A stretch of DNA of 64,000 bases, taken from the NCBI RefSeq assembly GCF_038051985.1, contig NZ_CP150291.1, forward strand, positions 1,054,001-1,118,000, written 5' to 3'. The DNA is from Solibacillus sp. FSL H8-0523. Its GTDB lineage: Bacteria > Bacillota > Bacilli > Bacillales_A > Planococcaceae. This document shows, piece by piece, positions 512 through 15,851 of the stretch. A model generated the notes under the pieces. That model was not told the origin of the DNA. It saw only the letters and a program-made list of their open reading frames with translations, and ran no database searches. The position numbers were made by a program, and so were the translations under genes. The stretch's first letter is position 1. Each line of letters begins with the position of its first letter.

Positions 512-2086
512 ATGAAAAAAATCGCAGTAATTGGAGCGGGTCCTGGTGGGTTAGCGGTAGCGATGCTTTTAGCGCACAAAGGATATGATGTATCAGTTTA
601 TGAAAAACAAGCATATGTAGGTGGACGTACAAGTGAAATTCGATTAGGTGACTATAAATTTGATATGGGCCCAACATTTTTGAATATGTTATACATTGCG
701 GAGGAAATCTTTGAGTTAACGGGACGAAATATCCGTGATTATATAGAATTAATTGATTTGAATCCGATGTATCAGCTCATTTTCCATGATAAGAAAATGA
801 ACATGACGCGAGATGCCGATGAAATGATTCGCCAAATTAATGAGCTTTATCCGGGCAACGAAGGCAGCTACGAGCGTTATATGGAGCAGACGAATAAAAA
901 GCTAGAAATTTTAGCGCCTGTATTACAAGCGCCAATGAATCGCATGACGGATTTATTGAACCCAAAAGTGATCAAGGCTCTAGGGGAGCTTGAAATCGGT
1001 AATTCACTTGTTGATACATTAGCGAAATTTTATAAAGATGAAGATTTGCAATTATCGTTTACGTTCCAAGCAAAATACTTAGGTATGTCACCATGGGAAA
1101 GTCCGGGTGCGTTTTCGATTTTATCGTATATTGAGCATGCTTATGGCGTGTACCACATTAAGGGTGGAATCAATAAGTTAACACAAGCGATGGCCAAAGT
1201 TTTTGAGGAAATGGGCGGGAAAATCTATTTAAATAATGGCGTGAAAAAGCTAACGCTACAAGATAAAAAAGTGACCGGCTTTACGTTAGAGGACGGTCAA
1301 AAGGTGGAAGCGGATGAAGTGGTGATTAACGGGGACTTTGGGCATATTATGACAACCGTTGTGCAACCAGGGGTATTAAAAAAATACTCTCCGAAAAAAT
1401 TAGATGAAAAGCATTATTCGTGCTCCACTTTTATGTTGTACTTAGGTGTCAATAAGCGCTTTGATTTACCACATCATACGATTTGGTTTGCGAAAGATTA
1501 TCGTAAAAATGTAGAGGAAGTGACAAAAACTAAACTCTTATCGGAGGACCCATCGATTTATATTCAAAATGCAATTGCGACAGATGAAACCGTCGCACCA
1601 GATGGGAAATCGACATTATATATCCTTGTGCCAGTGCCAAACAATTCGAGCGGCATCAATTGGGATAAGGTAGCAGCTCCTTTCCGTGAAATGGTGCTTG
1701 ATATGGTATCTGAAAAGTTAGGTGTGGCAGATATTCGAGATTATATCGAGGAAGAGCGTATGATGACCCCTGATAATTGGGCGAACGATATCGGAGTATA
1801 TAAAGGCGCAACATTCAATTTAGGTCACCAATTATCACAAATGCTGGTATTTAGACCGCGTAATAAGTTTGAAGAGCTAGATCAGTGCTGGCTTGTTGGA
1901 GGGGGGACCCATCCTGGTAGTGGGTTGCCGATTATTTTAGAATCGGCCCGTATTACGGCGAATGGTATTTTAAAGCAAGATCACTTGCCGCTGCTTCCAG
2001 TAAAACCTTTACCGAAAATCGAGCATTATCGACTTTCTACACAGTTGTATAAGCATCAGCCTGCAGCGATAAAAATGAATACTTAA
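512..2086 (+). CDS. Phytoene/diapophytoene desaturase-family FAD oxidoreductase (CrtN/CrtI type)
   Basis: A 524-residue protein with an N-terminal Rossmann FAD site (IGAGPGGLAVAMLLA, residues 7-21), the EKQAYVGGRT segment after the second strand, and a C-terminal VGGGTHPGSGLPIILESARI motif diagnostic of CrtI/CrtN desaturases. These enzymes desaturate, isomerise or further oxidise C30/C40 carotenes at the membrane. The specific member (CrtN, CrtNb/CrtP, CrtI) cannot be settled from sequence. SD GGAAGAGG (496-503) supports ATG 512; a three-codon ORF (ATGAGTAAATGA, 504-515) overlaps the start. It is monocistronic, between two terminators, with no other crt gene nearby. Confidence 0.85.
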   Translation: MKKIAVIGAGPGGLAVAMLLAHKGYDVSVYEKQAYVGGRTSEIRLGDYKFDMGPTFLNMLYIAEEIFELTGRNIRDYIELIDLNPMYQLIFHDKKMNMTRDADEMIRQINELYPGNEGSYERYMEQTNKKLEILAPVLQAPMNRMTDLLNPKVIKALGELEIGNSLVDTLAKFYKDEDLQLSFTFQAKYLGMSPWESPGAFSILSYIEHAYGVYHIKGGINKLTQAMAKVFEEMGGKIYLNNGVKKLTLQDKKVTGFTLEDGQKVEADEVVINGDFGHIMTTVVQPGVLKKYSPKKLDEKHYSCSTFMLYLGVNKRFDLPHHTIWFAKDYRKNVEEVTKTKLLSEDPSIYIQNAIATDETVAPDGKSTLYILVPVPNNSSGINWDKVAAPFREMVLDMVSEKLGVADIRDYIEEERMMTPDNWANDIGVYKGATFNLGHQLSQMLVFRPRNKFEELDQCWLVGGGTHPGSGLPIILESARITANGILKQDHLPLLPVKPLPKIEHYRLSTQLYKHQPAAIKMNT

Positions 2087-2091
2087 AAGGA

Positions 2092-2123
2092 AAAGGCATC
2101 GCATGTCGTTATGCGATGCCTTT
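2092..2123. terminator. Bidirectional terminator between crt gene and Pel operon
   Basis: AAAGGCATCGCAT (2092-2104) and ATGCGATGCCTTT (2111-2123) form a perfect 13-bp stem with a 6-nt loop. T-rich tracts follow on both strands, so it can end both the + strand crt transcript and the convergent minus-strand Pel operon. Confidence 0.8.
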
Positions 2124-2130
2124 ATCTTAT

Positions 2131-2811
2131 TTACTGTGCATAATCGCCCGTGTAGTTTACAAGTGAGCAAGAGTGAACCCCATTGATTTCGTCGATGAGT
2201 GAAACAAAATACGTATTATCATCGACTAAACGCACTTCGACCGTCATTTCAATCATGCCATTTCGAACGGTTTTAGATTTTAATTTTGTATTTAATTTTG
2301 CTAATATTTTGCGCACATCTTCATGGGCTTCCTGTGAATAATTAGTGACTAATAAATACGTTTCGCCGCGAATCTTTTTCTTTGATAGCCAAGCGAGTAC
2401 TGCTCCAAATGCAAGTGAGCCAATGAGTGCAATTGGATACATTCCCGCACCAATCGCAATGCCTCCTGCAATGGCCCAAAACATATAAACGATATCTAAC
2501 GGGTCTTTAACAGCGGTACGGAAGCGCACAATACTTAATGCCCCAACCATCCCGAGCGACAGCACTATGTTTGTACTAATTGTCATAATAATGACGGAGG
2601 TAATCATCGTCATTAATACAAACGATACATTGTAATTGTAGCTATAAACAACGCCGCGGAAGCATGTTTTATAAATAAAATAAATAAACATCCCAACGGC
2701 AAATGAGCAAATTAAGCCTAAAATAATTTCAATATATGAAACATTCTTAAATGAATCGAATGATAAAACACTTTTTTTAATAATGTCCTGAAATGATAAT
2801 GCGTCATTCAT
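2131..2811 (-). CDS. DUF4956 membrane protein, last gene of the Pel/CotH operon
   Basis: A 226-residue protein with about four membrane helices in its N-terminal two thirds (around residues 25-50, 60-80, 85-100 and 110-140), the family signature SLGMVGALSIVRFRTAVKDP and a soluble alpha/beta tail. DUF4956 proteins commonly travel with CotH-kinase and VTC-domain genes, exactly the arrangement here; their molecular role is unknown. The ATG at 2811 is preferred over 2817 because AAGGGG is about 8 nt upstream rather than 2. The gap to the VTC gene is 12 nt, so translation is probably coupled. Confidence 0.85.
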   Translation of the reverse strand: MNDALSFQDIIKKSVLSFDSFKNVSYIEIILGLICSFAVGMFIYFIYKTCFRGVVYSYNYNVSFVLMTMITSVIIMTISTNIVLSLGMVGALSIVRFRTAVKDPLDIVYMFWAIAGGIAIGAGMYPIALIGSLAFGAVLAWLSKKKIRGETYLLVTNYSQEAHEDVRKILAKLNTKLKSKTVRNGMIEMTVEVRLVDDNTYFVSLIDEINGVHSCSLVNYTGDYAQ

Positions 2812-2823
2812 CAACATGTCCCC

Positions 2824-3531
2824 TTACTTAAAATATTGAATTGTACGTTCTCGACAAAGTACATATTTTGAAATTGACGAGCGTACAAGACGTTCTGGTT
2901 GAACGAGCTTACGAATGACATCCGGTAAAAACTGATCGAATTTCACTTCAAGTACTAGCTGTTCGGGGTATAGAATATTTTCGTAAATAATCCGGTCATC
3001 AAATAAATCGATTCCGTTGACGCCGGCTTTTAACTCCTTATCAAACGTGACCCTTACATTGCCTGGTCCATACGTATAGGCGGCGCGAATATAATCAACA
3101 ATGACGCGCGGCGTAAATAACCGGTATCGCAAGGCTTGGTAAAAGTCCTTTATTAAAGGTTCATTACGTTGTGCAAGCAGGTCATAGTGTCCAGCTAAAA
3201 TGGCGTCGTATTCTGCACGTGAAAGCCTGGCCGATTCCTTTGCGATAAAGTCACCATATTTACTTTTGCGTTCTAAATTGATGACGTCGTCAGAGCCGTT
3301 GTAAATGCGAATTCGGTATTTTTCACGTCCGAAAATACCTTCATTTTTGTCATAAATGGCATGATCATGTACACCGTCAAAGTAGAGGCTTCGAATATTG
3401 TAGCCCTCTGTTGTTAGTGCGTGTTTGTCCATGGGCATTACTTGCGAAATACGTGAAACAAGCGGGGCCATTTCGAAATAATTGATATAGTATTTCATTT
3501 CATGTCTAAATTTTTTGTTAAACATATTCAT
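2824..3531 (-). CDS. VTC-domain protein (polyphosphate polymerase-like triphosphate tunnel enzyme)
   Basis: A 235-residue protein matching the catalytic VTC domain: FRHEMKYYI at the N-terminus, RSLYFD, the basic strand KYRIRIYN, LERKSK, RVIVDYIR and VLEVKFDQFLP, i.e. the alternating Arg/Lys/Glu residues lining the tunnel of this fold. In yeast Vtc4 the domain makes polyphosphate from ATP; in bacteria it sits beside CotH and DUF4956 genes with unproven substrate. Its ATG overlaps the upstream stop by one base (TAATG). Its place in a Pel operon suggests phosphate or polyphosphate modification at the cell surface, which is inference. Confidence 0.87.
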   Translation of the reverse strand: MNMFNKKFRHEMKYYINYFEMAPLVSRISQVMPMDKHALTTEGYNIRSLYFDGVHDHAIYDKNEGIFGREKYRIRIYNGSDDVINLERKSKYGDFIAKESARLSRAEYDAILAGHYDLLAQRNEPLIKDFYQALRYRLFTPRVIVDYIRAAYTYGPGNVRVTFDKELKAGVNGIDLFDDRIIYENILYPEQLVLEVKFDQFLPDVIRKLVQPERLVRSSISKYVLCRERTIQYFK

Positions 3532-6500
3532 TAGGGTACCTCCACTTGAATTGTTTGGAAATGGTTGACACCGTCATCATCTAAATACAAATCAAAGGCT
3601 GCATTCGTATGACCTTGTTCGTCTTTTACAGTGACCGATAAATAATACGTACCTGGTTGTAATTCAGGTACTTTCATTTCGGTTTCACGTAAATCGTGCG
3701 CATCGGCGACAATATCCGTAAGTGCTGGATCTCTCGCGACGACAGCAGAATAGTAAACGATATCTCCTTGTAAATTGAACGATGGTTGCCAAGAGAAAAT
3801 ATGGTGGTTATTTTCAAGTAGTACTTCAGCGTGCATATAAAATGGTTTTGGTTTATCTAGATCTTCATAGTAACGTAAAAGTGCTAGTTTTGGTGTAGCG
3901 ATGATTTCGTCCAATTCTTGTTGTAAGTTTTCGACTTTTCCACTTAGAAATTGGACATCTGGCATTTTTTCAATATAGCGATAGCTTTCTTCGTATTTGG
4001 CTAACTGATTTTCAACAATCTCCTCGTTAATATAATCAGCGTAAACTTCTTCAAGCTTTGCAGTAAATTTGTCGACATTCACTTGGTCCCGGAAATAACG
4101 GTTGAGTAAAATATTTCCCCAGTAGTTACTAATACCAGCTTGATACGGGCGAATGTTCTCGGTTTTGCGTCCGAGGTTCCAGCCATCATCATAATCCCAA
4201 GGGAGAATGAGCCATTTATGAATATTAAGAGGCGAATAGATATAAAAGTTATTCGCATCTGTATCCATATTGTCCATTAAAATATTGACCGCAAGCCAAG
4301 TTAAAAGATTTTCCTCATCGAAATGATGTGCGATAACATCGTTTATTGGAATTTCATAGTTGTTCACATCATTTAGCATTTGAATGAGCTTGTCATGTTC
4401 TTCACGACCTTTAATTTCGAGTATCGATTCAAATTCATTTTTGTCATACAACGGATCGGTTTCGGACTTAATTTGTTCAGGATAACGACCAAATTCGAAA
4501 AACGTTACTTTATATAAATAGCCGTTTGGATCAAATAGGTGGTTACGTAAAAACTTTTTGTTTGGCTGTTCGACATGTGTATACAAACCGTAATCTTCAT
4601 AGACAGTAGAACCAACAGTCGTATCTTTTACATATAAATGAATGAATTGGGTGCGCAAGCTAGAGACGTTCGGAATCGATTCCATTAAGTCGAAGCTTAA
4701 TTTGTTGCGTACTTTTGTCATGTCTTTAAAATGCTTGTTTAAGTTAATTGTTGTTTGGTCATTCCACGTGCCCGCGCTATCAAGTAAGTTAATTTTGTAC
4801 GATTTTTGTGGCTGATTACGCGCGGTATTACCTCGTAAACTGATTTTGGCATTCGCTTCGGTTGTGTCAAAGCCAAACATGCCACTTTGAATACCACCGC
4901 CATTTGGCAATCCTTCTTGTAAGATGATTTTTAAATTGTCTTCACTAAAACGTTCAATAATTCGATTCAAGCCGTACCAATCTAAAGTGGGTTGTTTGCT
5001 ATCAGGTAATACCGTCATATAAAGGGTTTTTATTGTTGCATCATGATCACGCTCGTAAATGCGCTTATCGTCAATTGTGATGAAGTTATTTACGATTTGG
5101 TTTTCTGATATCGGCGGCGTGTTCAAGTTTGCATTAGCCAGTTCGTCACTTTTGGCATCACTACAGCCGACAATAAAAATCAATGCAATTAACGAGAAAA
5201 AGCGTAAACTTTTTGGTGATAATGCTTTGAACTTTTTCGGTGGGCTAAGCGTTTGAACAGGTTGTGGGCAATAGGTGAAATAATCAATATTTTTTGTAAT
5301 GTAAGATAAGCGTAATAGTACGGCACATAAACTAATAAATGCTGCGATAAATAATCCCATCCCGTGAAGTGCTAATTGCATCGAAAAATACGTACAAGTG
5401 GCACAGAGTAGTACGAATACACCAGATAAAATAAGAATTCCTTTACGATCATCGAAGTACATTAATAGATGAAATGCCACGAACATTAAAATAAAGAAAA
5501 AATAAGCTAAACAAAGGGTAATAAAGACGTCGAGTTGCTCCATAGTGAACCCGATTTTTGATAAATATAAAATACCTACCGCGATGGCAAGTGCTGTAAA
5601 GAGTAATTGAACTTCTGCTAAAAAGCCCATGCGTTTTATTAAGACTCTTTGCATTTTTTTCTTCGCCGTTTGCACACTTTCGTAAGTGCCACCTTCCGTA
5701 ATGTTTTTGTAGTAGCTTAAAAAGCGTTCATAAAAATCAGTTTCAATAATGACAACAAAAAAGATTAATGATGGTAAAACCGATAAATAGGCATAAAAGA
5801 CGGGCACATCATAAAAGGGCATTAAATAATACTGTCCGGCTACAATAGTTGGTGAATCCGATAAAAACCAATAGACTAAATTGTGTATATAGACGCCTGA
5901 ATAAAGTAAAACACCACTTATGAAAATCGATGGATAGCGCTTTGCGATTGAAAAGTAGGCAAAGTAGCGATTATTTTGACTGCTCGGAAATACGTGTTCA
6001 AAATGAAAGGCTGAAAAAATAATAATGCTTGCAAAACCTACATCCATTCCAAGTAAAGCGATAATCACAGGTGATAGCGTAGTCAGTTTAAATAATAAAA
6101 AGCTGACAATAATGGAGAGTAAAACGGCAAAGGCAAAGCTTCTGAAAATCCGTTTATAATCTTTTAAGGCAGACATAAAAACATTTTGCGTCCAAATGAC
6201 GACTAGTTCGACAAAGAACAAATACGCCACCGCTTTATAGAAGAAACTTTCATCAAGAGAAAATAAAAAAATCCCCGCAATAATGGCCGCAACGGGTAAG
6301 ACGAAAAATAAGCTTCCGTAATAAGCATTTAAAATGTAGGTATAATTTTTTTCGTAAATACAATCCGCAATATAGCGCGTTATAAGCAATGTAATACCAG
6401 ACGTTAGAATAATTGAAAACACAAAGCAATAAGCAAGTGTTGCAATGAATAACTCGTTTTCTAAAAATGTTACGCCATGTTGTTTCATTAAAATTTGCTG

Positions 6501-6632
6501 TACAAAAACGAGAATTAAACATAAAATCATCGGTCCAATTGTCGTCATTGTTGAATAGGCGTAGGCTTGTAAGCTGTTAACTAAGCCTTGTTTTCGGTAA
6601 AGCTTTCGTAATTCGAAGCCGATTCCTGCCAT
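3531..6632 (-). CDS. pelG: PelG-CotH fusion: Pel polysaccharide flippase-like membrane protein joined to a CotH kinase-like domain
   Basis: A 1033-residue fusion. Residues 1 to about 445 are a PelG protein (MAGIGFELRKLYRK start, about 12 membrane helices), the inner-membrane component expected to move Pel polymer. After a short linker comes a hydrophobic helix ending in IVGC (Cys490), which looks like the lipoprotein signal of a formerly separate protein. Residues about 520-930 are a CotH atypical kinase domain with SLRGNTARNQPQKSYKI (nucleotide-binding Lys region), MDTDANNFY and LPWDYDDGW (metal-binding Asp cluster). The tail looks like an Fn3-type beta-sandwich. ATG 6632 is chosen over 6650 because GGAGGG is correctly spaced; it overlaps pelF by 52 nt. 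B. subtilis CotH phosphorylates spore-coat proteins; the target here is unknown. Confidence 0.88.
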   Translation of the reverse strand: MAGIGFELRKLYRKQGLVNSLQAYAYSTMTTIGPMILCLILVFVQQILMKQHGVTFLENELFIATLAYCFVFSIILTSGITLLITRYIADCIYEKNYTYILNAYYGSLFFVLPVAAIIAGIFLFSLDESFFYKAVAYLFFVELVVIWTQNVFMSALKDYKRIFRSFAFAVLLSIIVSFLLFKLTTLSPVIIALLGMDVGFASIIIFSAFHFEHVFPSSQNNRYFAYFSIAKRYPSIFISGVLLYSGVYIHNLVYWFLSDSPTIVAGQYYLMPFYDVPVFYAYLSVLPSLIFFVVIIETDFYERFLSYYKNITEGGTYESVQTAKKKMQRVLIKRMGFLAEVQLLFTALAIAVGILYLSKIGFTMEQLDVFITLCLAYFFFILMFVAFHLLMYFDDRKGILILSGVFVLLCATCTYFSMQLALHGMGLFIAAFISLCAVLLRLSYITKNIDYFTYCPQPVQTLSPPKKFKALSPKSLRFFSLIALIFIVGCSDAKSDELANANLNTPPISENQIVNNFITIDDKRIYERDHDATIKTLYMTVLPDSKQPTLDWYGLNRIIERFSEDNLKIILQEGLPNGGGIQSGMFGFDTTEANAKISLRGNTARNQPQKSYKINLLDSAGTWNDQTTINLNKHFKDMTKVRNKLSFDLMESIPNVSSLRTQFIHLYVKDTTVGSTVYEDYGLYTHVEQPNKKFLRNHLFDPNGYLYKVTFFEFGRYPEQIKSETDPLYDKNEFESILEIKGREEHDKLIQMLNDVNNYEIPINDVIAHHFDEENLLTWLAVNILMDNMDTDANNFYIYSPLNIHKWLILPWDYDDGWNLGRKTENIRPYQAGISNYWGNILLNRYFRDQVNVDKFTAKLEEVYADYINEEIVENQLAKYEESYRYIEKMPDVQFLSGKVENLQQELDEIIATPKLALLRYYEDLDKPKPFYMHAEVLLENNHHIFSWQPSFNLQGDIVYYSAVVARDPALTDIVADAHDLRETEMKVPELQPGTYYLSVTVKDEQGHTNAAFDLYLDDDGVNHFQTIQVEVP

Positions 6633-8047
6633 GCTGTGTTCCCTCCACACTGTGCATAAATTGCTTTATAGCTATTAATAAAGCTTGAACGTGTATATAA
6701 ATGAGCTACTCGCTCATAGCCGTTTTGACCATATGTTTTTCGTAAGTTTCCATCCTCGCATAATTTGATAACCTGCCCAGCCATTTCTTCATAATGCATA
6801 ACGGGAACAATTGCGCCAGCAGGTCCAAATACATCGTTCGTGCCTTCGATTAATTCACGGCACCCCCCAACATTTGTACAAACAAATGGAATGGCACATG
6901 CAAAGCCTTCTAAAATCGCAAGTGGCTGCCCCTCACTAATACTTGTTAAAACGAGTAAATCTAAATTACCTAAATAGTCTTTAATTTGAACCATACCAGT
7001 AAAGTAGGCATTTTTAATATGGAGTGTTTCCGCAAGCTGCAAGCATTCCTCGTAATATTCGAGATCCTCTTCAAATGGTCCCATTATATGAAGTTCGACG
7101 TTTGGCAATTTACGCTCAACTAGTGCAAACATTTGAAGCATCATTTTTATATCTTTAATTGGCACCACGCGCACAATAGCCCCGATACGTATTTTGTCTT
7201 CAGGTAAAGTCCGTGAAATCGATGCAAAATCTGCCACATCGACGCCGTTTGGAATGACGCGTATTTTTTGCGGGTCACAGCCTAGCTCGATTTGGATTTG
7301 CATATTGCGGTCAAATAAGGTAATGACTTCATCTGCTAAGCTATAAATTGCGCTAGATAATGTGTAAAAATAATTAATCCATAAATCTTTAAAATAGCCG
7401 TGTACCCAGTTGGCTTTAATGATTTCCTCCTCGCGTTCACGTGAATAAATGCCATGCTCGGTTAGGAGGAGAGGTTTTTGATGGATTACTTTTGCAAGTG
7501 CGCCAATAACCCCGGCATAACCAGTTGATACGGCATGATAAAGGTCAGCTTTTGGTACATCGCCGCGAATAATTAAAAATAGTGGCAATATCATGGAGCT
7601 CACCGTCCAAAAAAGCTCGGTATACGGTACTTGCGAATAATTCGTTTTTGCTAAATGCTCAATCATATCGTAATAATCTTTACTTGATAAAAACTCTCCG
7701 ACATTTTGAATAGGGAGGTTACGAATGTCTTCAAAGAGCCTCTCCCAATTCACTTGCTGGTCACCACTAACGAGCGCAAATAGATTTTGTTTTTGAGCAT
7801 CACTAAGGTTAAATCGCTTGCCCCATTTTGAATGCTCCTCTAAATGCGCATCTAAAAAAATTTCGTGCACCTGTATTAAGTTTTCAGGCAAGGTGTATTT
7901 GAATTGACCTTGCTGTTTTCTTTCAGCTGCAATGGCAATAATAATGAACTCGGTAGTTGGCATAGCAGTCATTAAGGAATGAATCCAGCTGGAAACCCCG
8001 CCCGTTACGTAAGGGTAAGAGCCTTCTGCGATTAAACAAATTTTCAT
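6581..8047 (-). CDS. pelF: PelF, GT4-family glycosyltransferase of Pel polysaccharide synthesis
   Basis: A 488-residue cytoplasmic glycosyltransferase. The N-terminus (MKICLIAEGSYPYVTGGVSS) is the PelF/DUF3492 signature with the donor-side glycine turn; the C-terminal GT4 half has VRVVPIKDI, the LLVLTSISEGQPLAILE segment with its EX7E catalytic pair, and CTNVGGCRELIEG. PelF polymerises the GalNAc/GlcNAc-type chain from UDP sugars. ATG 8047 follows GAGGGA and lies 10 nt after pelA; an upstream in-frame ATG at 8077 would overlap pelA and lacks a good SD. The next gene, pelG, starts inside its 3' end. Confidence 0.92.
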   Translation of the reverse strand: MKICLIAEGSYPYVTGGVSSWIHSLMTAMPTTEFIIIAIAAERKQQGQFKYTLPENLIQVHEIFLDAHLEEHSKWGKRFNLSDAQKQNLFALVSGDQQVNWERLFEDIRNLPIQNVGEFLSSKDYYDMIEHLAKTNYSQVPYTELFWTVSSMILPLFLIIRGDVPKADLYHAVSTGYAGVIGALAKVIHQKPLLLTEHGIYSREREEEIIKANWVHGYFKDLWINYFYTLSSAIYSLADEVITLFDRNMQIQIELGCDPQKIRVIPNGVDVADFASISRTLPEDKIRIGAIVRVVPIKDIKMMLQMFALVERKLPNVELHIMGPFEEDLEYYEECLQLAETLHIKNAYFTGMVQIKDYLGNLDLLVLTSISEGQPLAILEGFACAIPFVCTNVGGCRELIEGTNDVFGPAGAIVPVMHYEEMAGQVIKLCEDGNLRKTYGQNGYERVAHLYTRSSFINSYKAIYAQCGGNTAWQESASNYESFTENKA

Positions 8048-8057
8048 CGGTCGTCCC

Positions 8058-9869
8058 TCATTTAAAAGTAATTTCAAACGTAGTGTTTGTTGCTTTTACT
8101 AAATACGTATTATCATCAATTTTTTCATACGTACAATGTGTCGCTTTTTTGATTGCTTTTTCGGTACGTAAGATGAAGTCATGCTGCTCATAAAAAGGCT
8201 CGATACTTCCTTTAATTGTGGATGAGTTCTCATGAAAGCGAACGGTTGAATTAATCATACTTGCCGTTTTTAATGCACCATTTGTCGCTGTTGTTGCGTC
8301 AATCCATGGGTAGCGTTTATGAATGTCACCGAAAAACTGTTCGAACTCTTCAAACATACTTGTCCAACCACCTTTACTACGGTCTTCACTAATAACATCA
8401 TCTGGGTGAATAAAATGCGAGATGAAACCTAATGAGGTAATCGCATTAACAATTTCCCATTCATTGATGGAAGTAGGGAAGTAACCTGAAGAAACGCGCG
8501 GCATTTCGACAACCTTATCTTCACTCACTTCAAATTCCTGCACATAGGCTCGTTTGGAAATATCCTCTGAATACAGAGAGGATATGACCAGTAAATTAGG
8601 TAGCGCTTTTTTCAAAATGCCTCTTGCTTCTATCGACAAAACATTCGAAGGAGGAATGTAAGATGACACATCGTAAGAAGGGAAGGCTTTGTTGGTATAG
8701 GACTCTAATTCGCGCAGGGAGTTTTCCATATCCTCAAGCGAGTGCCAATGATTATAGCCGAATGTTTTTGAAATTGCGGCATCCATCGTGAGCGATTGGT
8801 GATTGTATCCGTGATAACCGATTTCACCATCACTATTAATGAGCTCACGACCAAAGCCAACTAAATACGTTAGCTCAATGTCTTGAGAATTATCGTAAGG
8901 TGGTGTGACGTTATCTTCGTAGGATTCAATTAAGGCACCTGTGTACACTAAATTGAATTTCTTTGCGGCTTCTAACATATCGGGCCACCAAATATTGCGA
9001 TAAAAGTCTGCTAAATCTAACTTGAATTCTTTGTAAATAATGTCGTTACGTCCTTTAGCAATAGGAGCAGGGAAGTCGTCAATGAAAAAGGTTTTGGCAT
9101 TAATAACAGGGTAAATAAACGTTTCTTTCGGTAAACTGAGCATTCCTGCAATGATCCCACGTGAATATTTTTCTGCTGCGATATTGACGTTAAGTACAAC
9201 AAAATGTCCTTTACCATAAGGTTTAGCCCACAGTAGTGGGATGCCTTTTAAATTTTTCATGGCCGGTGAAATGTTACTTTCAATGGCAATGTTTAAACTA
9301 CTATCTTCTAAGTCTTCGTTGAAAAAAAATTGACCTTTTGCTCCAATTAGGAAGTTGGATGTTACTTCGATTCCAGTTGTTGTCGTAAAATCCGAGTAAC
9401 TGATAATCCCTAAGTGTGGACTGACTGTAATAAACAAACTAGTTGGTTCGAGTGTTGTCATCGCAAAAATCGTACCACCGTTTTTAACATATCCCTCGAT
9501 TTGTTCGACTGTTCCAATATCATCTAAATAGGCGGTAGCTAGTAAAACATTGGGACAACGTGATAATTCGATTTTGCCTAATGCAGCATCATAGGATTTA
9601 TATGATTTTTGCATGTAGTGCAACGTTTGCTCGATATTGTTTTTTAATTTTTCGTGCTCTGCATTATATAAAATGCAGTACGCCGCATCTGAAACCGATT
9701 GGGAGCGGCTTGTGCTCTTGTGTAAGAGATGAGCGTTAACGGTTAAATCGAGTTCATTTTCTACAGATTTCAAGACAAAAGACGAACGTGAAAGCTGTAG
9801 CGCAATACCGCTTATTAAAATTAAGGCAAGGATGAAAATAATTTTTTTAGTTTTCAATAGTTCTTTCAT
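8058..9869 (-). CDS. pelA: PelA-type polysaccharide deacetylase (DUF2194 family), membrane-anchored
   Basis: A 603-residue protein with one N-terminal membrane segment (about residues 8-26) and an extracellular region. The N-terminal half resembles a glutamine-amidotransferase-like fold. The C-terminal half is a CE4-like deacetylase: FFIDDFPAP (Asp264/Asp265), GYHGYNHQ (His353 and His357, metal ligands) and HFIHPDD (His488). It lacks the glycoside hydrolase domain of Pseudomonas PelA, as in Gram-positive pel operons, where only the deacetylase part is kept. Partial de-N-acetylation makes Pel cationic. It overlaps pelE by 23 nt. Confidence 0.85.
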   Translation of the reverse strand: MKELLKTKKIIFILALILISGIALQLSRSSFVLKSVENELDLTVNAHLLHKSTSRSQSVSDAAYCILYNAEHEKLKNNIEQTLHYMQKSYKSYDAALGKIELSRCPNVLLATAYLDDIGTVEQIEGYVKNGGTIFAMTTLEPTSLFITVSPHLGIISYSDFTTTTGIEVTSNFLIGAKGQFFFNEDLEDSSLNIAIESNISPAMKNLKGIPLLWAKPYGKGHFVVLNVNIAAEKYSRGIIAGMLSLPKETFIYPVINAKTFFIDDFPAPIAKGRNDIIYKEFKLDLADFYRNIWWPDMLEAAKKFNLVYTGALIESYEDNVTPPYDNSQDIELTYLVGFGRELINSDGEIGYHGYNHQSLTMDAAISKTFGYNHWHSLEDMENSLRELESYTNKAFPSYDVSSYIPPSNVLSIEARGILKKALPNLLVISSLYSEDISKRAYVQEFEVSEDKVVEMPRVSSGYFPTSINEWEIVNAITSLGFISHFIHPDDVISEDRSKGGWTSMFEEFEQFFGDIHKRYPWIDATTATNGALKTASMINSTVRFHENSSTIKGSIEPFYEQHDFILRTEKAIKKATHCTYEKIDDNTYLVKATNTTFEITFK

Positions 9870-10761
9870 AGCGTTCCAACACCTCAGACCAGTATCTTAC
9901 ATAATTCATTGTTTCGTTTGAAAAGGTAATGGGGGCAGCCTTAAGCGCCTGTAATTCCATAAATAGTCGTTCAATTGCATGTGTCTCATAATAGAGCTTC
10001 ATCGCTGAAATATAGGCATGCTCATTTTTGGGATAGCGTTGTTTAAATAATTGCATGGTATCTTCTGCTGCGAGTAGGTCTTGAACCGCAAGCTCCATTT
10101 GAAATTTTTCTTTAAATGTTTCATCGGTTGCATCGCCATTTTTAATGATTTGTGCCATCAGCGCAATGTACTGAACTTGATATTTTTCTTTTGAATGCGT
10201 ATCTAAAAAGCCACTTTGTAAATATTCCTGAATGATATGAGCGTAGGCTTTTACAATTTCAGAGTTCGATTGATTTTGGTGATATTCAACCTCCAGCTTT
10301 TGCATAAGTAACGTTAGCTTACGCTTTACTTCAACTACGGCCGTTACGGCATAATGTGAAGTTTCGGTATCGTCGTTGATGACAGCGATTTTTAGTACGT
10401 CGATATATTGCATGGCATCTTCTTTTAATACATCAATTAATACTTTTCGGCGAACGCTTACATCGTTTACAAGCAATGCTTCTTCAATCGAAATGCTATT
10501 CAATTCATGTTGCTTTTCGATTTTGCTTAAAGCTTGTTGTTTTTTAAATTCAATATCTTCTGTTTGCTGAGCCAAATAGTGTGCGAAATCGTTTTCATCT
10601 TTTTTGAACCATGACTTCGGCCAAACGACAGGTAAACACCAACCGATGATAGGTAGTAATAAAACTATCGTTAGTTTTAAAAACCACGCTTTCAAATTGC
10701 CCCTAGATAAAAGTCCAGTTGCGATAATCGATAAGAGTAGATAGATTCCGATATACTTCAT
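9847..10761 (-). CDS. pelE: PelE-like membrane/TPR scaffold protein
   Basis: A 304-residue protein with two N-terminal membrane helices (about 3-20 and 27-47) and a long helical cytoplasmic part with TPR-like helix pairs from about residue 60 onward. This matches PelE, which joins PelD and PelF at the membrane. Sequence identity to characterised PelE is low by eye, so the call rests on topology and on position between PelD and PelA. It overlaps pelD by four bases (ATGA), indicating coupled translation. Confidence 0.75.
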   Translation of the reverse strand: MKYIGIYLLLSIIATGLLSRGNLKAWFLKLTIVLLLPIIGWCLPVVWPKSWFKKDENDFAHYLAQQTEDIEFKKQQALSKIEKQHELNSISIEEALLVNDVSVRRKVLIDVLKEDAMQYIDVLKIAVINDDTETSHYAVTAVVEVKRKLTLLMQKLEVEYHQNQSNSEIVKAYAHIIQEYLQSGFLDTHSKEKYQVQYIALMAQIIKNGDATDETFKEKFQMELAVQDLLAAEDTMQLFKQRYPKNEHAYISAMKLYYETHAIERLFMELQALKAAPITFSNETMNYVRYWSEVLERYERTIEN

Positions 10762-12938
10762 AAATAAGACACCTGCTGATCCAATGAAAAGTTAAATCCG
10801 GCTTGTTGAAAACGTTGTAAAATTACTGGTAAATCTTGAGTTTGTAAATTTGAAAATAAGATAAAAAGTTGTTGATTGTCATAGCCCAAATAATCGGTTT
10901 CGCGTATGAGGTGCTGTATTTGATAGGCTGTCTGCTGCAAATGATAGGGAGCTACTTGAAGTGTTAATACATGATAGGGCATATGATGAATTGTCTGTGC
11001 TTGCTGTTTTGCCGCTAATACTTCTTTAAAGGCATCTATTTTTAAAACGGCAGTATTTTTTATGAAACGTTGGTCTTCTGATACTTTAATAAATTCGAAT
11101 GCGCGAGCAAGTGAAGACTGAATGAGCTCCTTTAAAACGAGGAATAAATTTTCATGATAGTGTGAAAAATTTTCAAAAGGCATTTTGCCAATAGTGATTA
11201 TCGCTTGTATATTATTGTCATAATAAATCGGTGCAGCCATAAGAGGGGCTTGTGCTACGAGTGTGCGATTAATAAAAGGCTGCTCAGTTGTTAGTAACTG
11301 TTGAACAAAAGGGGACTCGTCAACTTTTAACGAGTTAGTGATTGCTTCGCTTTTGTCTAAATCGGAATGTGCAATTAACCATAAATACGATTGCTCACTA
11401 TTAAAAATATAAATGGCAACATCTTCACAGTGCATGACACTTTCGATCACGTTAACCGCGCTCGTAAATATTTTTTCTGGTTCCAATTGGTCGAGTGTCT
11501 TCATAATGGAATGAATTTTACCGAAGCTATCCTCGTTATTTTTTACACGGTATTGTAGTTCATCTTTTACATCTCGAACTTCAGCGTGTACTTCTTCTAA
11601 AAAATCGTAGCGCATTTGTAGTTCATGGATTTGCTCGTTTTGCTCCGTAATTTTTTCATTTTTACGTTGCACAGAATAGCCGACAACGAGTCCGATAAAT
11701 AAAAATGTAACGATTTGAAACAAAAAAGTTGAATCGTAAAGTAACGAAATCAATTCACGTCCACGAGACAAATAATCGGCAACTAGTAATGAAAATGCTA
11801 GAACCCCACCTGTAAATGCTTGTTTGTTCCCGTAAATGGAACCAATCGTCATAATATAAAACACACCGAAAACGAAAATTGACATTGTCGGTAATCGAAG
11901 CTGCCATAAAAATAGGCTAATCACTAAAAAGATTACGCTATTTTCGAGATAGGGTTTCACGCCTAAAGCCCAGGCCGGTATCTTAGTAGTTTTTGGAGAA
12001 TTCTTTACTTTCAGTGTTCGGTGATTGAACGTTTCAAATCCCCATTCATACGTTTTTATTAAGCTTTCTTCGATGCTGTATTTAGGGACCCAGTCTAATT
12101 CGGTTTTGATTTTTTCGTTGCTAAGTGAGGAGTGCATAATATCTCCTTCTCTTGCTTGCGTATAAGTAGTTTTGAGTGTATAGCCCTGTGCTTGCAAAAC
12201 TTGTACAAGCTGATTGACGCTTGTTTGTATATTCGTCGATAAATTATACGTGCCTGTTATAAAGCTTTGTGTTGCCCTAAAAATAGCATGTGCTACATCT
12301 TTTACATAAATAAAGTCACGTGTTTGTTCACCGTTTCCGTAAATTTCTACTGTTTCGTTTTGTAAGGCTTTTGTGATAAAGGTTGCTACGACACCGCCTT
12401 CACCTTCGCTAGTTTGGCGCGGACCAAAGACATTAGATAAGCGAAAACAAACGGCATCGAGATCATGTTGCGCTGCCCAATTGCTACAATATTGTTCGCC
12501 AACCCATTTACTCACCCCATATGGTGCAATCGGAAGTGGTGTTTCATGCTCGGTTAACGGCAAATTCGTATTATTACCATAGATGGCAGCGGAAGAAGCA
12601 AAAATGAATTTTCTTACGTTAGATTGCTGTGAAAATTGCAACATATTAAGTAAGCCAATAATATTTGCTTCTGCATCGTAAATTGGATTTTGAATGGAAC
12701 GTGCTACACTTATTTGTGCAGCTAAATGAATGACAAAGTCAAAACGATTAGCAGCAAAAATTTCTTTGCATTTAGGATCCGTAATCGAAATAATATGTGC
12801 CTTATGCTTAAATGTAATATTTTCACGATGCCCAGTTGAAAGATTATCAATTATATGGATTTCGTAGCCTTCCTTGTAAAACTGTTCAGCTACATGTGAC
12901 CCAATAAAACCGTAGCCACCTGTTATTAAAACTCTCAT
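10758..12938 (-). CDS. pelD: GalE-type UDP-sugar epimerase fused to PelD c-di-GMP receptor
   Basis: A 726-residue fusion. Residues 1 to about 305 are an extended short-chain dehydrogenase: TGGYGFIG (NAD site), SSAAIYG, and YGVSK at 140-144 (catalytic Tyr/Lys), probably making UDP-GalNAc or a related sugar like PelX. About 330-422 are four membrane helices, then a coiled coil (about 430-475), a GAF domain (about 480-625) and a degenerate GGDEF domain. The GGDEF loop reads DNQQLF, so no cyclase activity is expected, but the upstream inhibitory-site motif RETD (679-682) is intact, as in c-di-GMP-binding PelD. ATG 12938 has a perfect AGGAGG 7 nt upstream and overlaps the beta-helix gene by 53 nt. 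Confidence 0.9.
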   Translation of the reverse strand: MRVLITGGYGFIGSHVAEQFYKEGYEIHIIDNLSTGHRENITFKHKAHIISITDPKCKEIFAANRFDFVIHLAAQISVARSIQNPIYDAEANIIGLLNMLQFSQQSNVRKFIFASSAAIYGNNTNLPLTEHETPLPIAPYGVSKWVGEQYCSNWAAQHDLDAVCFRLSNVFGPRQTSEGEGGVVATFITKALQNETVEIYGNGEQTRDFIYVKDVAHAIFRATQSFITGTYNLSTNIQTSVNQLVQVLQAQGYTLKTTYTQAREGDIMHSSLSNEKIKTELDWVPKYSIEESLIKTYEWGFETFNHRTLKVKNSPKTTKIPAWALGVKPYLENSVIFLVISLFLWQLRLPTMSIFVFGVFYIMTIGSIYGNKQAFTGGVLAFSLLVADYLSRGRELISLLYDSTFLFQIVTFLFIGLVVGYSVQRKNEKITEQNEQIHELQMRYDFLEEVHAEVRDVKDELQYRVKNNEDSFGKIHSIMKTLDQLEPEKIFTSAVNVIESVMHCEDVAIYIFNSEQSYLWLIAHSDLDKSEAITNSLKVDESPFVQQLLTTEQPFINRTLVAQAPLMAAPIYYDNNIQAIITIGKMPFENFSHYHENLFLVLKELIQSSLARAFEFIKVSEDQRFIKNTAVLKIDAFKEVLAAKQQAQTIHHMPYHVLTLQVAPYHLQQTAYQIQHLIRETDYLGYDNQQLFILFSNLQTQDLPVILQRFQQAGFNFSLDQQVSYL

Positions 12939-14244
12939 TGTAATTCCTCCTAAAACGTTTGCATTCATCACAACGACTAAAAGAAAAGAGCAATTTTTCT
13001 TGCGATTGAGTAAATGACAAATTAGATTTACCTCTATTATTTATATACTTATTCATAGCGCATATCTTATATGTGTTTTTCGTGAGTGATAAATGTTGAA
13101 TATTTTGCTGTAGCGTAATTTCGTAATAACCATGCTGCATGGTATCGTTGGCGATAAAGTCATTGTTTTCAATGGAAATATGCGAAGCGCCACCATTTAA
13201 GTCTTGAGTAGAGCCACCAATTACAAGACCAGCTTTATCATTATTTTTTATCGTATTGTTACGAACGGTTATATAAGTGGAGGACTGCTTATAGTTTTCA
13301 CTGCCAATTGAAATGCCGTAATTATTGTTTGCTAGATAGTTATTGATAATTTTAATATGTTTCCCACCGTCTACATATATGCCGGGAGCAGAATCATCGC
13401 CTTCATATGCCGGATTTTCTCTCGAAGAGTGTTCGATCACGATATTGTTTGAAATAATGCCATTTCGCGCATAATCGATACAACCTCTATCTGAGCAAGC
13501 TCCATAAAACCCTGCAACGTCAATTCCGATATTGTTATTTTTGTATAAAGTGTTGCGATCAATAATAAAGTTTGAGACATTCCCGCTTAACGTTAAACTT
13601 TCGCTACTACCAAGTGTTAAGTGATGTAGCCTGTTATTACGAATTAGTAAGTGTTCAATCGGTGTTACGCTATTTCCGTATACTAAAATTCCATGAGCAT
13701 TGCCTTCTTCGTGATTATTCGCAATATGATGGATATGATTATGCAGTAACTGAATAGTTTTACTTTCCCCGAGCACTAAAATTCCTGCAGGATAAAAATC
13801 ATCACTCTCCGTTGAAATATTGCGGATTTCAAACCCGATAATGTTAATATTGGAGCTATTTTCAATTGTAAATGCAGCTCGTTGTGAACTTGTTGAATCA
13901 CGCTTACTGCCATCAATGACGACTTTCTCATTTTTATAAGGACGTATTGTTAAGTGAAGATTGGAATCTGTAGTACGACCTTGAATGGTCATTAGCTCGT
14001 GATATATTCCTTTTCGTACTAAAATTTCATCACCATGACTACTTGTATTAATTGCGTATTGAATCGAACGAAATGGTGCTGTTATAGAACCATCACCGGC
14101 TGTATCATGCCCGTTTGGTGCCACATAGATCGCATGAGCGGCGTGCGAAACAGTTGCACCCCAACTCAAGAAAACTAATAGTAAAATCCAAAAAATTATG
14201 CCTTTGTAAATAAAGACCACCTCATTTTCTAGTAAAGGATTCAA
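12886..14244 (-). CDS. Secreted right-handed parallel beta-helix protein, first gene of the Pel operon
   Basis: A 452-residue protein with an N-terminal hydrophobic signal (about residues 11-33, likely cut near SHAAHA), then IYVAPNGHDTAGDGSITAPF, the usual entry to pectate-lyase-like beta-helices, and repeated N/G/I-rich coils (NNRLHHL, RNTLYKNNNIGIDV, NNYLANNNYGIS, RNNTIKNNDKAGL). Such folds act as polysaccharide lyases, hydrolases or epimerases, so a role in trimming or binding Pel is plausible. No substrate can be read. The start is uncertain: ATG 14244 has no SD, while GAGGTGG lies just inside. The last 18 residues are not beta-helix-like and overlap the epimerase-pelD start. Confidence 0.75.
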   Translation of the reverse strand: MNPLLENEVVFIYKGIIFWILLLVFLSWGATVSHAAHAIYVAPNGHDTAGDGSITAPFRSIQYAINTSSHGDEILVRKGIYHELMTIQGRTTDSNLHLTIRPYKNEKVVIDGSKRDSTSSQRAAFTIENSSNINIIGFEIRNISTESDDFYPAGILVLGESKTIQLLHNHIHHIANNHEEGNAHGILVYGNSVTPIEHLLIRNNRLHHLTLGSSESLTLSGNVSNFIIDRNTLYKNNNIGIDVAGFYGACSDRGCIDYARNGIISNNIVIEHSSRENPAYEGDDSAPGIYVDGGKHIKIINNYLANNNYGISIGSENYKQSSTYITVRNNTIKNNDKAGLVIGGSTQDLNGGASHISIENNDFIANDTMQHGYYEITLQQNIQHLSLTKNTYKICAMNKYINNRGKSNLSFTQSQEKLLFSFSRCDECKRFRRNYNESFNNRWLRFYWVTCS

Positions 14245-14498: not shown

Positions 14499-15851
14499 AT
14501 GACGAGTTACGAGCCAACGAAAACCGTATCTCTACATACATTAGGGTGTAAAGTAAACCACTATGAAACGGAAGCAATTTGGCAATTGTTCAAAGAGCAG
14601 GGCTACGACCGTGTAGAGTTTGACCACCAAGCAGATGTATATGTAATTAATACATGTACAGTAACGAATACGGGGGATAAAAAATCTCGCCAAGTCATTC
14701 GTCGTGCAATTCGTCAAAATCCAGATGCGGTTATTTGTGTAACAGGTTGTTATGCACAAACGTCACCGGCTGAAATTATGGCAATTCCAGGCGTAGATAT
14801 CGTTGTCGGCACACAAGACCGTGAAAAAATGCTTGGCTATATTGAACAGTACCGTGAAGAGCGTAAGCCAATTAACGCCGTGCGTAACATTATGAAAAAC
14901 CGTGTGTACGAAGAGTTAGACGTACCAGCGTTTACCGACCGTACACGTGCATCACTAAAAATTCAAGAAGGCTGTAATAACTTCTGTACATTCTGTATCA
15001 TCCCTTGGGCGCGCGGTTTAATGCGTTCACGTGATCCAGAAGAGGTCATCCGCCAAGCACAGCAATTAGTGGATGCAGGCTACCTTGAAATCGTGTTAAC
15101 AGGTATTCATACAGGTGGTTACGGTCAAGACTTTAAAGATTATAACTTAGCGCAATTACTACGTGAAATGGAAGCACAAGTAAAAGGCTTAAAACGTTTA
15201 CGTATTTCTTCGATTGAAGCGTCTCAATTAACAGATGAAGTAATTGAGGTATTACAAAATTCAGAAATCGTAGTCAACCACTTACACATTCCGATTCAAT
15301 CAGGTTCGGATACGGTATTAAAGCGTATGCGTCGTAAATATACGATGGAATTTTTCGCAGAGCGTCTTGAGAAATTAAAGATTGCTTTACCAGATTTAGC
15401 GGTTACATCGGATGTAATTGTTGGATTCCCTGGTGAAACAGAAGAAGAATTCTTGGAAACATACAACTTTATCCGTGACCATAAATTCTCTGAGTTACAT
15501 GTCTTCCCTTACTCTCAACGTACAGGTACACCAGCAGCGCGTATGGATGACCAAGTTGATGAAGAAGTGAAGAATGAACGTGTACATCGTTTAATCGCAT
15601 TAAATGACCAATTAGCAAAAGAGTATGCCTCTCGTTTTGAAGGCGAGGTACTGGAAGTGATTCCAGAAGAGCGCTTCAAAGATGGTGAAGGTGAAAACTT
15701 ATACGTAGGTTATACAACGAACTATCTAAAAATCATCTTCGAAGGCACAGAAGATATGATTGGCCAATTAACAAAAGTAAAAATTACAAAAGCAGGTTAC
15801 CCATATAACGAAGGGCAATTTGTTCGCGTATTAGAAGAACAAAATAATTAA
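14499..15851 (+). CDS. mtaB: tRNA t6A37 methylthiotransferase MtaB (radical SAM)
   Basis: A 450-residue protein that converts t6A37 to ms2t6A37 in tRNAs reading ANN codons. The N-terminal UPF0004 domain has three cluster cysteines (TLGCKVN, NTCTVT, TGCYAQ), the radical-SAM core has CNNFCTFC, and a TRAM domain follows from about residue 370 (GEVLEVIPEE). Length matches the family (about 450). SD AAAGGATG precedes ATG 14499. It is followed by a strong terminator. In B. subtilis mtaB (yqeV) directly follows rsmE. Confidence 0.95.
   Translation: MTSYEPTKTVSLHTLGCKVNHYETEAIWQLFKEQGYDRVEFDHQADVYVINTCTVTNTGDKKSRQVIRRAIRQNPDAVICVTGCYAQTSPAEIMAIPGVDIVVGTQDREKMLGYIEQYREERKPINAVRNIMKNRVYEELDVPAFTDRTRASLKIQEGCNNFCTFCIIPWARGLMRSRDPEEVIRQAQQLVDAGYLEIVLTGIHTGGYGQDFKDYNLAQLLREMEAQVKGLKRLRISSIEASQLTDEVIEVLQNSEIVVNHLHIPIQSGSDTVLKRMRRKYTMEFFAERLEKLKIALPDLAVTSDVIVGFPGETEEEFLETYNFIRDHKFSELHVFPYSQRTGTPAARMDDQVDEEVKNERVHRLIALNDQLAKEYASRFEGEVLEVIPEERFKDGEGENLYVGYTTNYLKIIFEGTEDMIGQLTKVKITKAGYPYNEGQFVRVLEEQNN

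Follow-up and report, generated by a model that had tools for sequence, protein, structure and literature searches.

Gene content and operon structure

The window, which is the whole stretch of 64,000 nucleotides that was analysed, contains a block of eight consecutive ORFs on the minus strand, coding in gene order for a beta-helix protein, PelD, PelE, PelADA, PelF, a PelG-CotH fusion protein, a VTC-type protein and a DUF4956 protein. The genes, the domains of the fusion protein and the flanking features are as follows.

14499-15851, MtaB-like gene, divergent from the operon
12886-14244, minus strand, secreted right-handed beta-helix protein (DUF1565/pectate-lyase-like; Beta_helix PF13229, 7e-13)
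10758-12938, minus strand, pelD (SDR/epimerase domain, TM helices, GAF domain, degenerate GGDEF domain)
9847-10761, minus strand, pelE
8058-9869, minus strand, pelADA, membrane-anchored Pel deacetylase (DUF2194 PF09960, 7e-140; one N-terminal TM helix)
6581-8077, minus strand, pelF glycosyltransferase (NF038011 PelF, 385 bits with a cut-off of 100, 6e-115)
3531-6632, minus strand, pelG-cotH fusion, one ORF of 1033 amino acids from the ATG
5271-6632, minus strand, PelG exporter domain (PF16933, 5e-117)
5163-5240, minus strand, internal lipoprotein-type signal, lipobox I-V-G-C (Cys496 codon at 5163-5165)
3900-4844, minus strand, CotH kinase-like domain (PF08757, 1e-59; NMD and PWDYD motifs kept)
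3624-3839, minus strand, weak fibronectin type III domain, C-terminal to CotH (PF00041, E 0.0034, below the cut-off)
2824-3531, minus strand, VTC-type polyphosphate polymerase lacking SPX and TM domains (PF09359, 1e-35)
2131-2817, minus strand, DUF4956 membrane protein, TM part and C-terminal ACT/MgtC-like domain (PF16316, 1e-11)
2092-2123, unstranded, bidirectional terminator-like hairpin of 14 bp, between the DUF4956 gene and the convergent crtI-family gene
512-2086, phytoene-desaturase-family (crtI-family) gene, convergent with the operon

The domain assignments are from Pfam and NCBIfam and are above the curated cut-offs for all but PelE and the fn3-like tail. PelE, a protein with two N-terminal hydrophobic segments, has no Pfam match and is named from its position and its conservation at this position in related pel loci. 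The pelD, pelE, pelADA, pelF and pelG genes are all present, contiguous and co-directional, as in the Gram-positive pelDEADAFG arrangement, and the CotH, VTC and DUF4956 genes are contiguous with pelG. This agrees with an earlier note on this DNA, which had described a Gram-positive pel set joined to a CotH/VTC/DUF4956 trio. The spacings between the eight genes, in gene order, are -86, -4, -23, -20, -70, -1 and +6 nt, where the overlap of pelF with the fusion gene is -70 nt for the longest ORF (3531-6650) and -52 nt from the ATG start; together with the terminator-like hairpin that follows the DUF4956 gene, this spacing bears out the suggestion of one tight operon. The nine proteins that were scanned (512-14244) include neither a DUF4832 hydrolase nor a DGC/PDE protein as the product of a fourth accessory gene, and Rfam gives zero matches within the first 20 kb of the window.

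The pelD ORF extends to a GTG at 12971, and the true start is probably the alternative ATG at 12938, which is preceded by GGAGG. At this end (12886-12971) the beta-helix gene extends beyond the end of its S. palustris homologue, and some 50 nt of it cover the ribosome-binding site and start codon region of pelD; the stop codon usual for this gene has possibly been lost.

A survey of gene neighbourhoods, as had been proposed, finds the same block of pel genes and trio at all 22 PelG loci of the Planococcaceae (201 genomes, being 200 sampled genomes and the window's own). In most of the loci with the fusion the block begins with a beta-helix homologue ahead of pelD; in others this gene is missing. 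The recurrence of the block and of the fusion across many genomes rules out chance or artefact as their source.

The N-terminal part of PelD matches the Epimerase domain (4e-63), and the best structural match of this SDR domain is the UDP-glucose 4-epimerase 4zrm. The GGxGFIG and YxxxK motifs are kept in the SDR domains of the trio loci that were read, save for L178 and the truncated L184. The GAF_3 match is weak, and the c-di-GMP site motif is present as RETD; this RxxD motif is found in nearly all PelDs read from trio loci, L066 being an exception. The host genome encodes 19 GGDEF proteins. An intact SDR domain has been reported for Brevibacillus only (Whitfield 2020, PMC7112168), with alterations of the cofactor and YxxxK motifs reported from streptococci, clostridia and actinobacteria, whereas in the window an intact SDR domain coexists with the CotH/VTC/DUF4956 trio.

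The PelG-CotH fusion and its internal lipobox

The single ORF confirms that the CotH part belongs to PelG, with PelG at residues 7-460 and CotH at residues 603-917 of one chain. Such fused ORFs, of which 25 distinct ones were collected, occur in at least three families of Bacilli: they account for 17 of the 22 PelG ORFs in Planococcaceae (1030-1075 amino acids), and additional copies are found in Paenibacillus and in another family of Bacilli. Across 398 genomes sampled from the whole phylum, the window's own PelG is the only fused one. The host is a Solibacillus-like bacterium of the Planococcaceae, and the closest named relative over the fusion is S. palustris, being 78% identical. The 24 fused sequences in a 50-row PelG tree form one clade (support 100/99), from which it follows that the fusion arose once, and it has been retained while PelG diverged to 44% identity within the fused set. 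Sequencing error as the cause of the fusion is ruled out by its recurrence in many genomes. An internal start codon with a Shine-Dalgarno-like site before CotH is absent from all 24 of 24 fused ORFs, which rules out that CotH is translated on its own; it is produced within the fusion.

The unfused PelGs end shortly after the TFC motif. Between the end of PelG (NIDYxTFCxQP) and CotH, all 25 fused proteins have a run of basic residues, then a hydrophobic segment and then a lipobox whose last residue is a cysteine; these three elements also make up a lipoprotein signal. This signal, which the earlier note does not mention, is situated about 490 residues into the chain, behind PelG, rather than at an N-terminus; to our knowledge, the known Lgt/LspA substrates have an N-terminal signal. 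Cys496 is invariant in the alignment of the 25 fused proteins and is the only invariant column of the 57-column linker (residues 465-521), the mean identity of which is 43%. The residue at -1 is Gly, Ala or Ser in 25/25, and the residue at -3 is Leu in 22/25. LspA is encoded in the host genome. Of the unfused pel CotHs, about half have an ordinary lipoprotein signal at the N-terminus, and plain TM anchors are seen on those of L060, L071, L072, L075, L081 and L189.

These sequence features suggest lipidation of the chain and, probably, a cut by LspA that would yield PelG and a lipoprotein CotH at the site of polymer exit. It is also possible, with a lower probability, that the segment functions only as a 13th TM helix, which tethers an uncut CotH at the mouth of PelG, the cysteine being lipidated without cleavage or being a relic. 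The continuous ORF without an internal start site would be compatible with such a tether, as would the plain TM anchors of several unfused pel CotHs, and with a single origin of the fusion the signal could simply have been inherited. A relic cysteine, however, is unlikely to be the sole invariant position of a linker with a mean identity of 43%, with Gly, Ala or Ser at -1 throughout. If lipidation and cleavage do occur, then a lipoprotein signal can be used inside a chain, after a transporter of 12 helices, which would widen the range of sites for lipoprotein processing.

The simplest history, as judged from the sequences, would be that pelG became fused by read-through to a cotH of the lipoprotein type, the signal being kept under selection. 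In two genomes a free second CotH, with a lipoprotein signal at its start, adjoins the fusion and nests with the fused CotHs; these tandem copies (L074:3478-5190 and L078:14173-15861) are apparently derived from the fused CotH. The AlphaFold models of the fusion (mean pLDDT 54) and of DUF4956 are poor because of the few alignment rows, and that of the fusion is too poor to bear on topology.

CotH and the VTC-DUF4956 pair inside and outside pel loci

The VTC protein matches the profile of VTC4 (3g3q, E 1e-10), aligned over the N-terminal two thirds. The residues R69, K71, R73, R75, E87, K89, K98, R149, R160, E195, K197, S221 and K222, which correspond to the tunnel residues of yeast VTC4, are invariant in 12 VTCs. 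A search with the VTC protein against viral contigs gives no matches. In DUF4956 there are about five hydrophobic segments, and the protein matches the MgtC family PRK09977 weakly; the low-confidence AlphaFold model gives a weak hint that its C-terminal domain resembles MgtC/ACT domains. A sequence search of the PDB gives no match tying DUF4956 to a polyphosphate channel.

In the 201 Planococcaceae genomes all 104 VTC genes are followed by a DUF4956 gene, and one DUF4956 gene occurs without VTC. By the adjacency counts, which were computed from hand-transcribed genome survey tables, 22 of these VTC genes belong to pel loci and 38 to CotH trios that lack PelG, and the other 44 form VTC-DUF4956 pairs. 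The previous statement that the trio usually stands on its own thus holds, since 38 of the 60 CotH-VTC-DUF4956 trios in Planococcaceae have no PelG nearby. In L175 and L191, which are pel loci with an SDR-type PelD, VTC and CotH are not beside PelG, and these appear to be losses of the trio.

The N-termini that were read divide the CotHs into two classes. The VTC-linked CotHs have a hydrophobic N-terminal segment or are fused, and the spore-type CotHs (355-379 amino acids) have neither a hydrophobic N-terminus nor an adjoining VTC gene in 18 of 18 cases; the membrane-targeted form accompanies the VTC-DUF4956 pair, and the cytosolic spore-type form does not. One VTC-linked CotH, that of L187, lacks the hydrophobic N-terminus, probably due to an over-extended ORF start. 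Other odd cases are a membrane-targeted CotH without VTC (L170), a broken copy (L171) and a decaying locus (L185). The gene associations fit a module that would supply phosphate to CotH outside the membrane, and a CotH that is extracytoplasmic and fed by polyphosphate is plausible from these sequence data. The pairing of VTC and DUF4956 with a membrane-targeted CotH offers a handle on the purpose of bacterial VTC proteins and on the phosphate source of an extracytoplasmic kinase.

An OmpR-type response regulator and a histidine kinase are beside the pair in 16 of the 19 non-pel loci that were read, and the VTC-DUF4956(-CotH) loci adjoining such two-component systems (L083-L099) appear to be regulated surface modules in their own right. 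Some of the non-pel loci have a PrsA-like foldase, and some of the pairs without CotH (L098-L101) have a neighbour from a cluster that includes the carbohydrate-binding protein Cthe_2159. The CotHs associated with two-component systems (L083-L096) have PWDYN in place of the PWDYD of the pel and spore CotHs, possibly reflecting a different chemistry. In the pel locus of Marinisporobacter, a second CotH, with two LysM domains, is encoded behind DUF4956 (L060:13636-15798).

The residues D796 and D819 of CotH, presumably the metal/catalytic aspartates, align with those of the spore coat kinase structure 5jd9 and are invariant in 25/25 fused proteins, as is the PWDYD motif. It has to be considered that CotH could be a binding or scaffold protein and not an enzyme, given the fn3-like C-terminus of the CotH part, the relative that carries LysM domains and the replacement of PWDYD by PWDYN near two-component systems, but the invariance of the aligned aspartates and of PWDYD in the pel-type proteins makes this improbable.

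Proposed mode of action and relation to known systems

In the mechanism that we propose, PelD, gated by c-di-GMP and having a built-in UDP-sugar epimerase, would activate PelF; the polymer, which in a Gram-positive pelDEADAFG system would be rich in GalNAc, would leave through PelG and be deacetylated by PelADA. The CotH domain would be outside, directly at the exit of PelG, because it is a C-terminal extension of PelG behind the 13th hydrophobic segment. As this segment has the features of a lipoprotein signal peptide, Lgt and LspA most likely lipidate the chain and cut it at C496, so that PelG and a lipid-anchored CotH would arise at a constant 1:1 ratio. CotH could then act on the polymer as it emerges, or on a partner protein, for example PelADA, by modifying it or by regulating it through phosphorylation; we infer that CotH stands at the site where PelADA is also modelled, the B. 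cereus PelADA having been modelled as binding PelG through its TM helix (PMC13254593). VTC and DUF4956 would be one polyphosphate-synthesising membrane unit that serves CotH, possibly passing polyphosphate outwards as a phosphate source where ATP is scarce. Since the catalytic residues of both VTC and CotH are kept, a phosphate modification of the polymer or of a protein at its exit is possible. We hold the whole of this reading (a Pel operon, a lipidated and cut PelG-CotH chain, CotH acting at the exit and VTC-DUF4956 serving CotH) with a confidence slightly short of even. The more specific form, in which exporter and lipoprotein are one polyprotein processed by Lgt/LspA at the internal lipobox and VTC-DUF4956 exports polyphosphate as the phosphate donor of CotH, is proposed more tentatively.

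The combination of genes had been thought to be undescribed, which is not the case, because it is already covered by two studies. In streptococci and clostridia, cotH, a polyphosphate polymerase gene and the genes of DUF4956 and DUF4832 proteins are contiguous with pelDEADAFG, a comparable gene set occurs in bifidobacteria, and a regulation based on phosphorylation has been proposed (Whitfield 2020, PMC7112168). In S. intermedius, where the accessory genes are SIR_1591-1594, single-gene deletions have been made: deletion of CotH results in less Pel and deletion of the DUF4956-type gene in more Pel, both deletions reduce aggregation, and for the VTC deletion no significant change of Pel or aggregation is reported (PMC12345266, 2025). 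The latter study states that the synteny of the trio is not found beyond Pel loci, but in Planococcaceae it is frequent there, by the counts given above. In the literature search, which covered the accessible text outside supplementary figures and subscription papers, neither a PelG-CotH fusion nor an internal lipobox is mentioned, and these two features, the lipobox being conserved, are new with respect to that literature, as are the pairing of every Planococcaceae VTC gene with DUF4956, the coupling of this pair with a membrane-targeted CotH and the trios outside pel.

The S. intermedius data also bear on the role of CotH. The opposite effects of the CotH and DUF4956-type deletions, and the VTC deletion without a significant effect, speak for an alternative in which CotH regulates the Pel machinery as a protein kinase, as proposed in Whitfield 2020, and VTC/DUF4956 shares the operon but serves phosphate homeostasis instead of feeding CotH. 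The MgtC/ACT-like C-terminal domain of DUF4956 and the 44 of 104 pairs that have no CotH are in line with such a homeostasis unit. The targeting pattern, however, places CotH on the outer side of the membrane, separated from cytosolic ATP and from PelD and PelF. We regard this alternative as less probable than our own reading. For our own proposal, the VTC deletion without a reported phenotype is the strongest evidence against a supply of polyphosphate by VTC-DUF4956, and it argues against a requirement for polyphosphate in S. intermedius.

When compared with the published loci of Whitfield 2020 and S. intermedius, the locus of the window shares the five pel genes and their order, the accessory trio directly downstream and an SDR domain on PelD. 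It differs in the fusion of PelG and CotH into a single ORF that contains a lipobox, in the RxxD motif kept by PelD, in the lack of a DUF4832 hydrolase gene in the operon and in the beta-helix gene upstream. With the pelDEADAFG locus of Bacillus cereus ATCC 10987 it shares the core genes and their order, the GAF domain and RxxD motif of PelD and the TM-anchored PelADA, but the B. cereus locus, as published, is without CotH/VTC/DUF4956 genes and without an SDR domain on PelD, and unlike the window it is flanked by PelAH and galE. In the yeast VTC complex (catalytic VTC4 and the membrane part VTC1), the tunnel residues are of the same type and an obligate membrane partner is likewise found beside the enzyme; the putative bacterial polymerase unit has no SPX domain, and its DUF4956 resembles MgtC/ACT proteins and not VTC1. 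The spore coat kinase CotH (PDB entry 5jd9) has the same CotH domain with aligned NxD and PWDYD motifs. Whereas spore-type CotHs are encoded alone and lack a hydrophobic N-terminus, the CotH of the window is membrane-targeted, has an fn3-like C-terminus, is linked to VTC-DUF4956 and is fused to an exporter.
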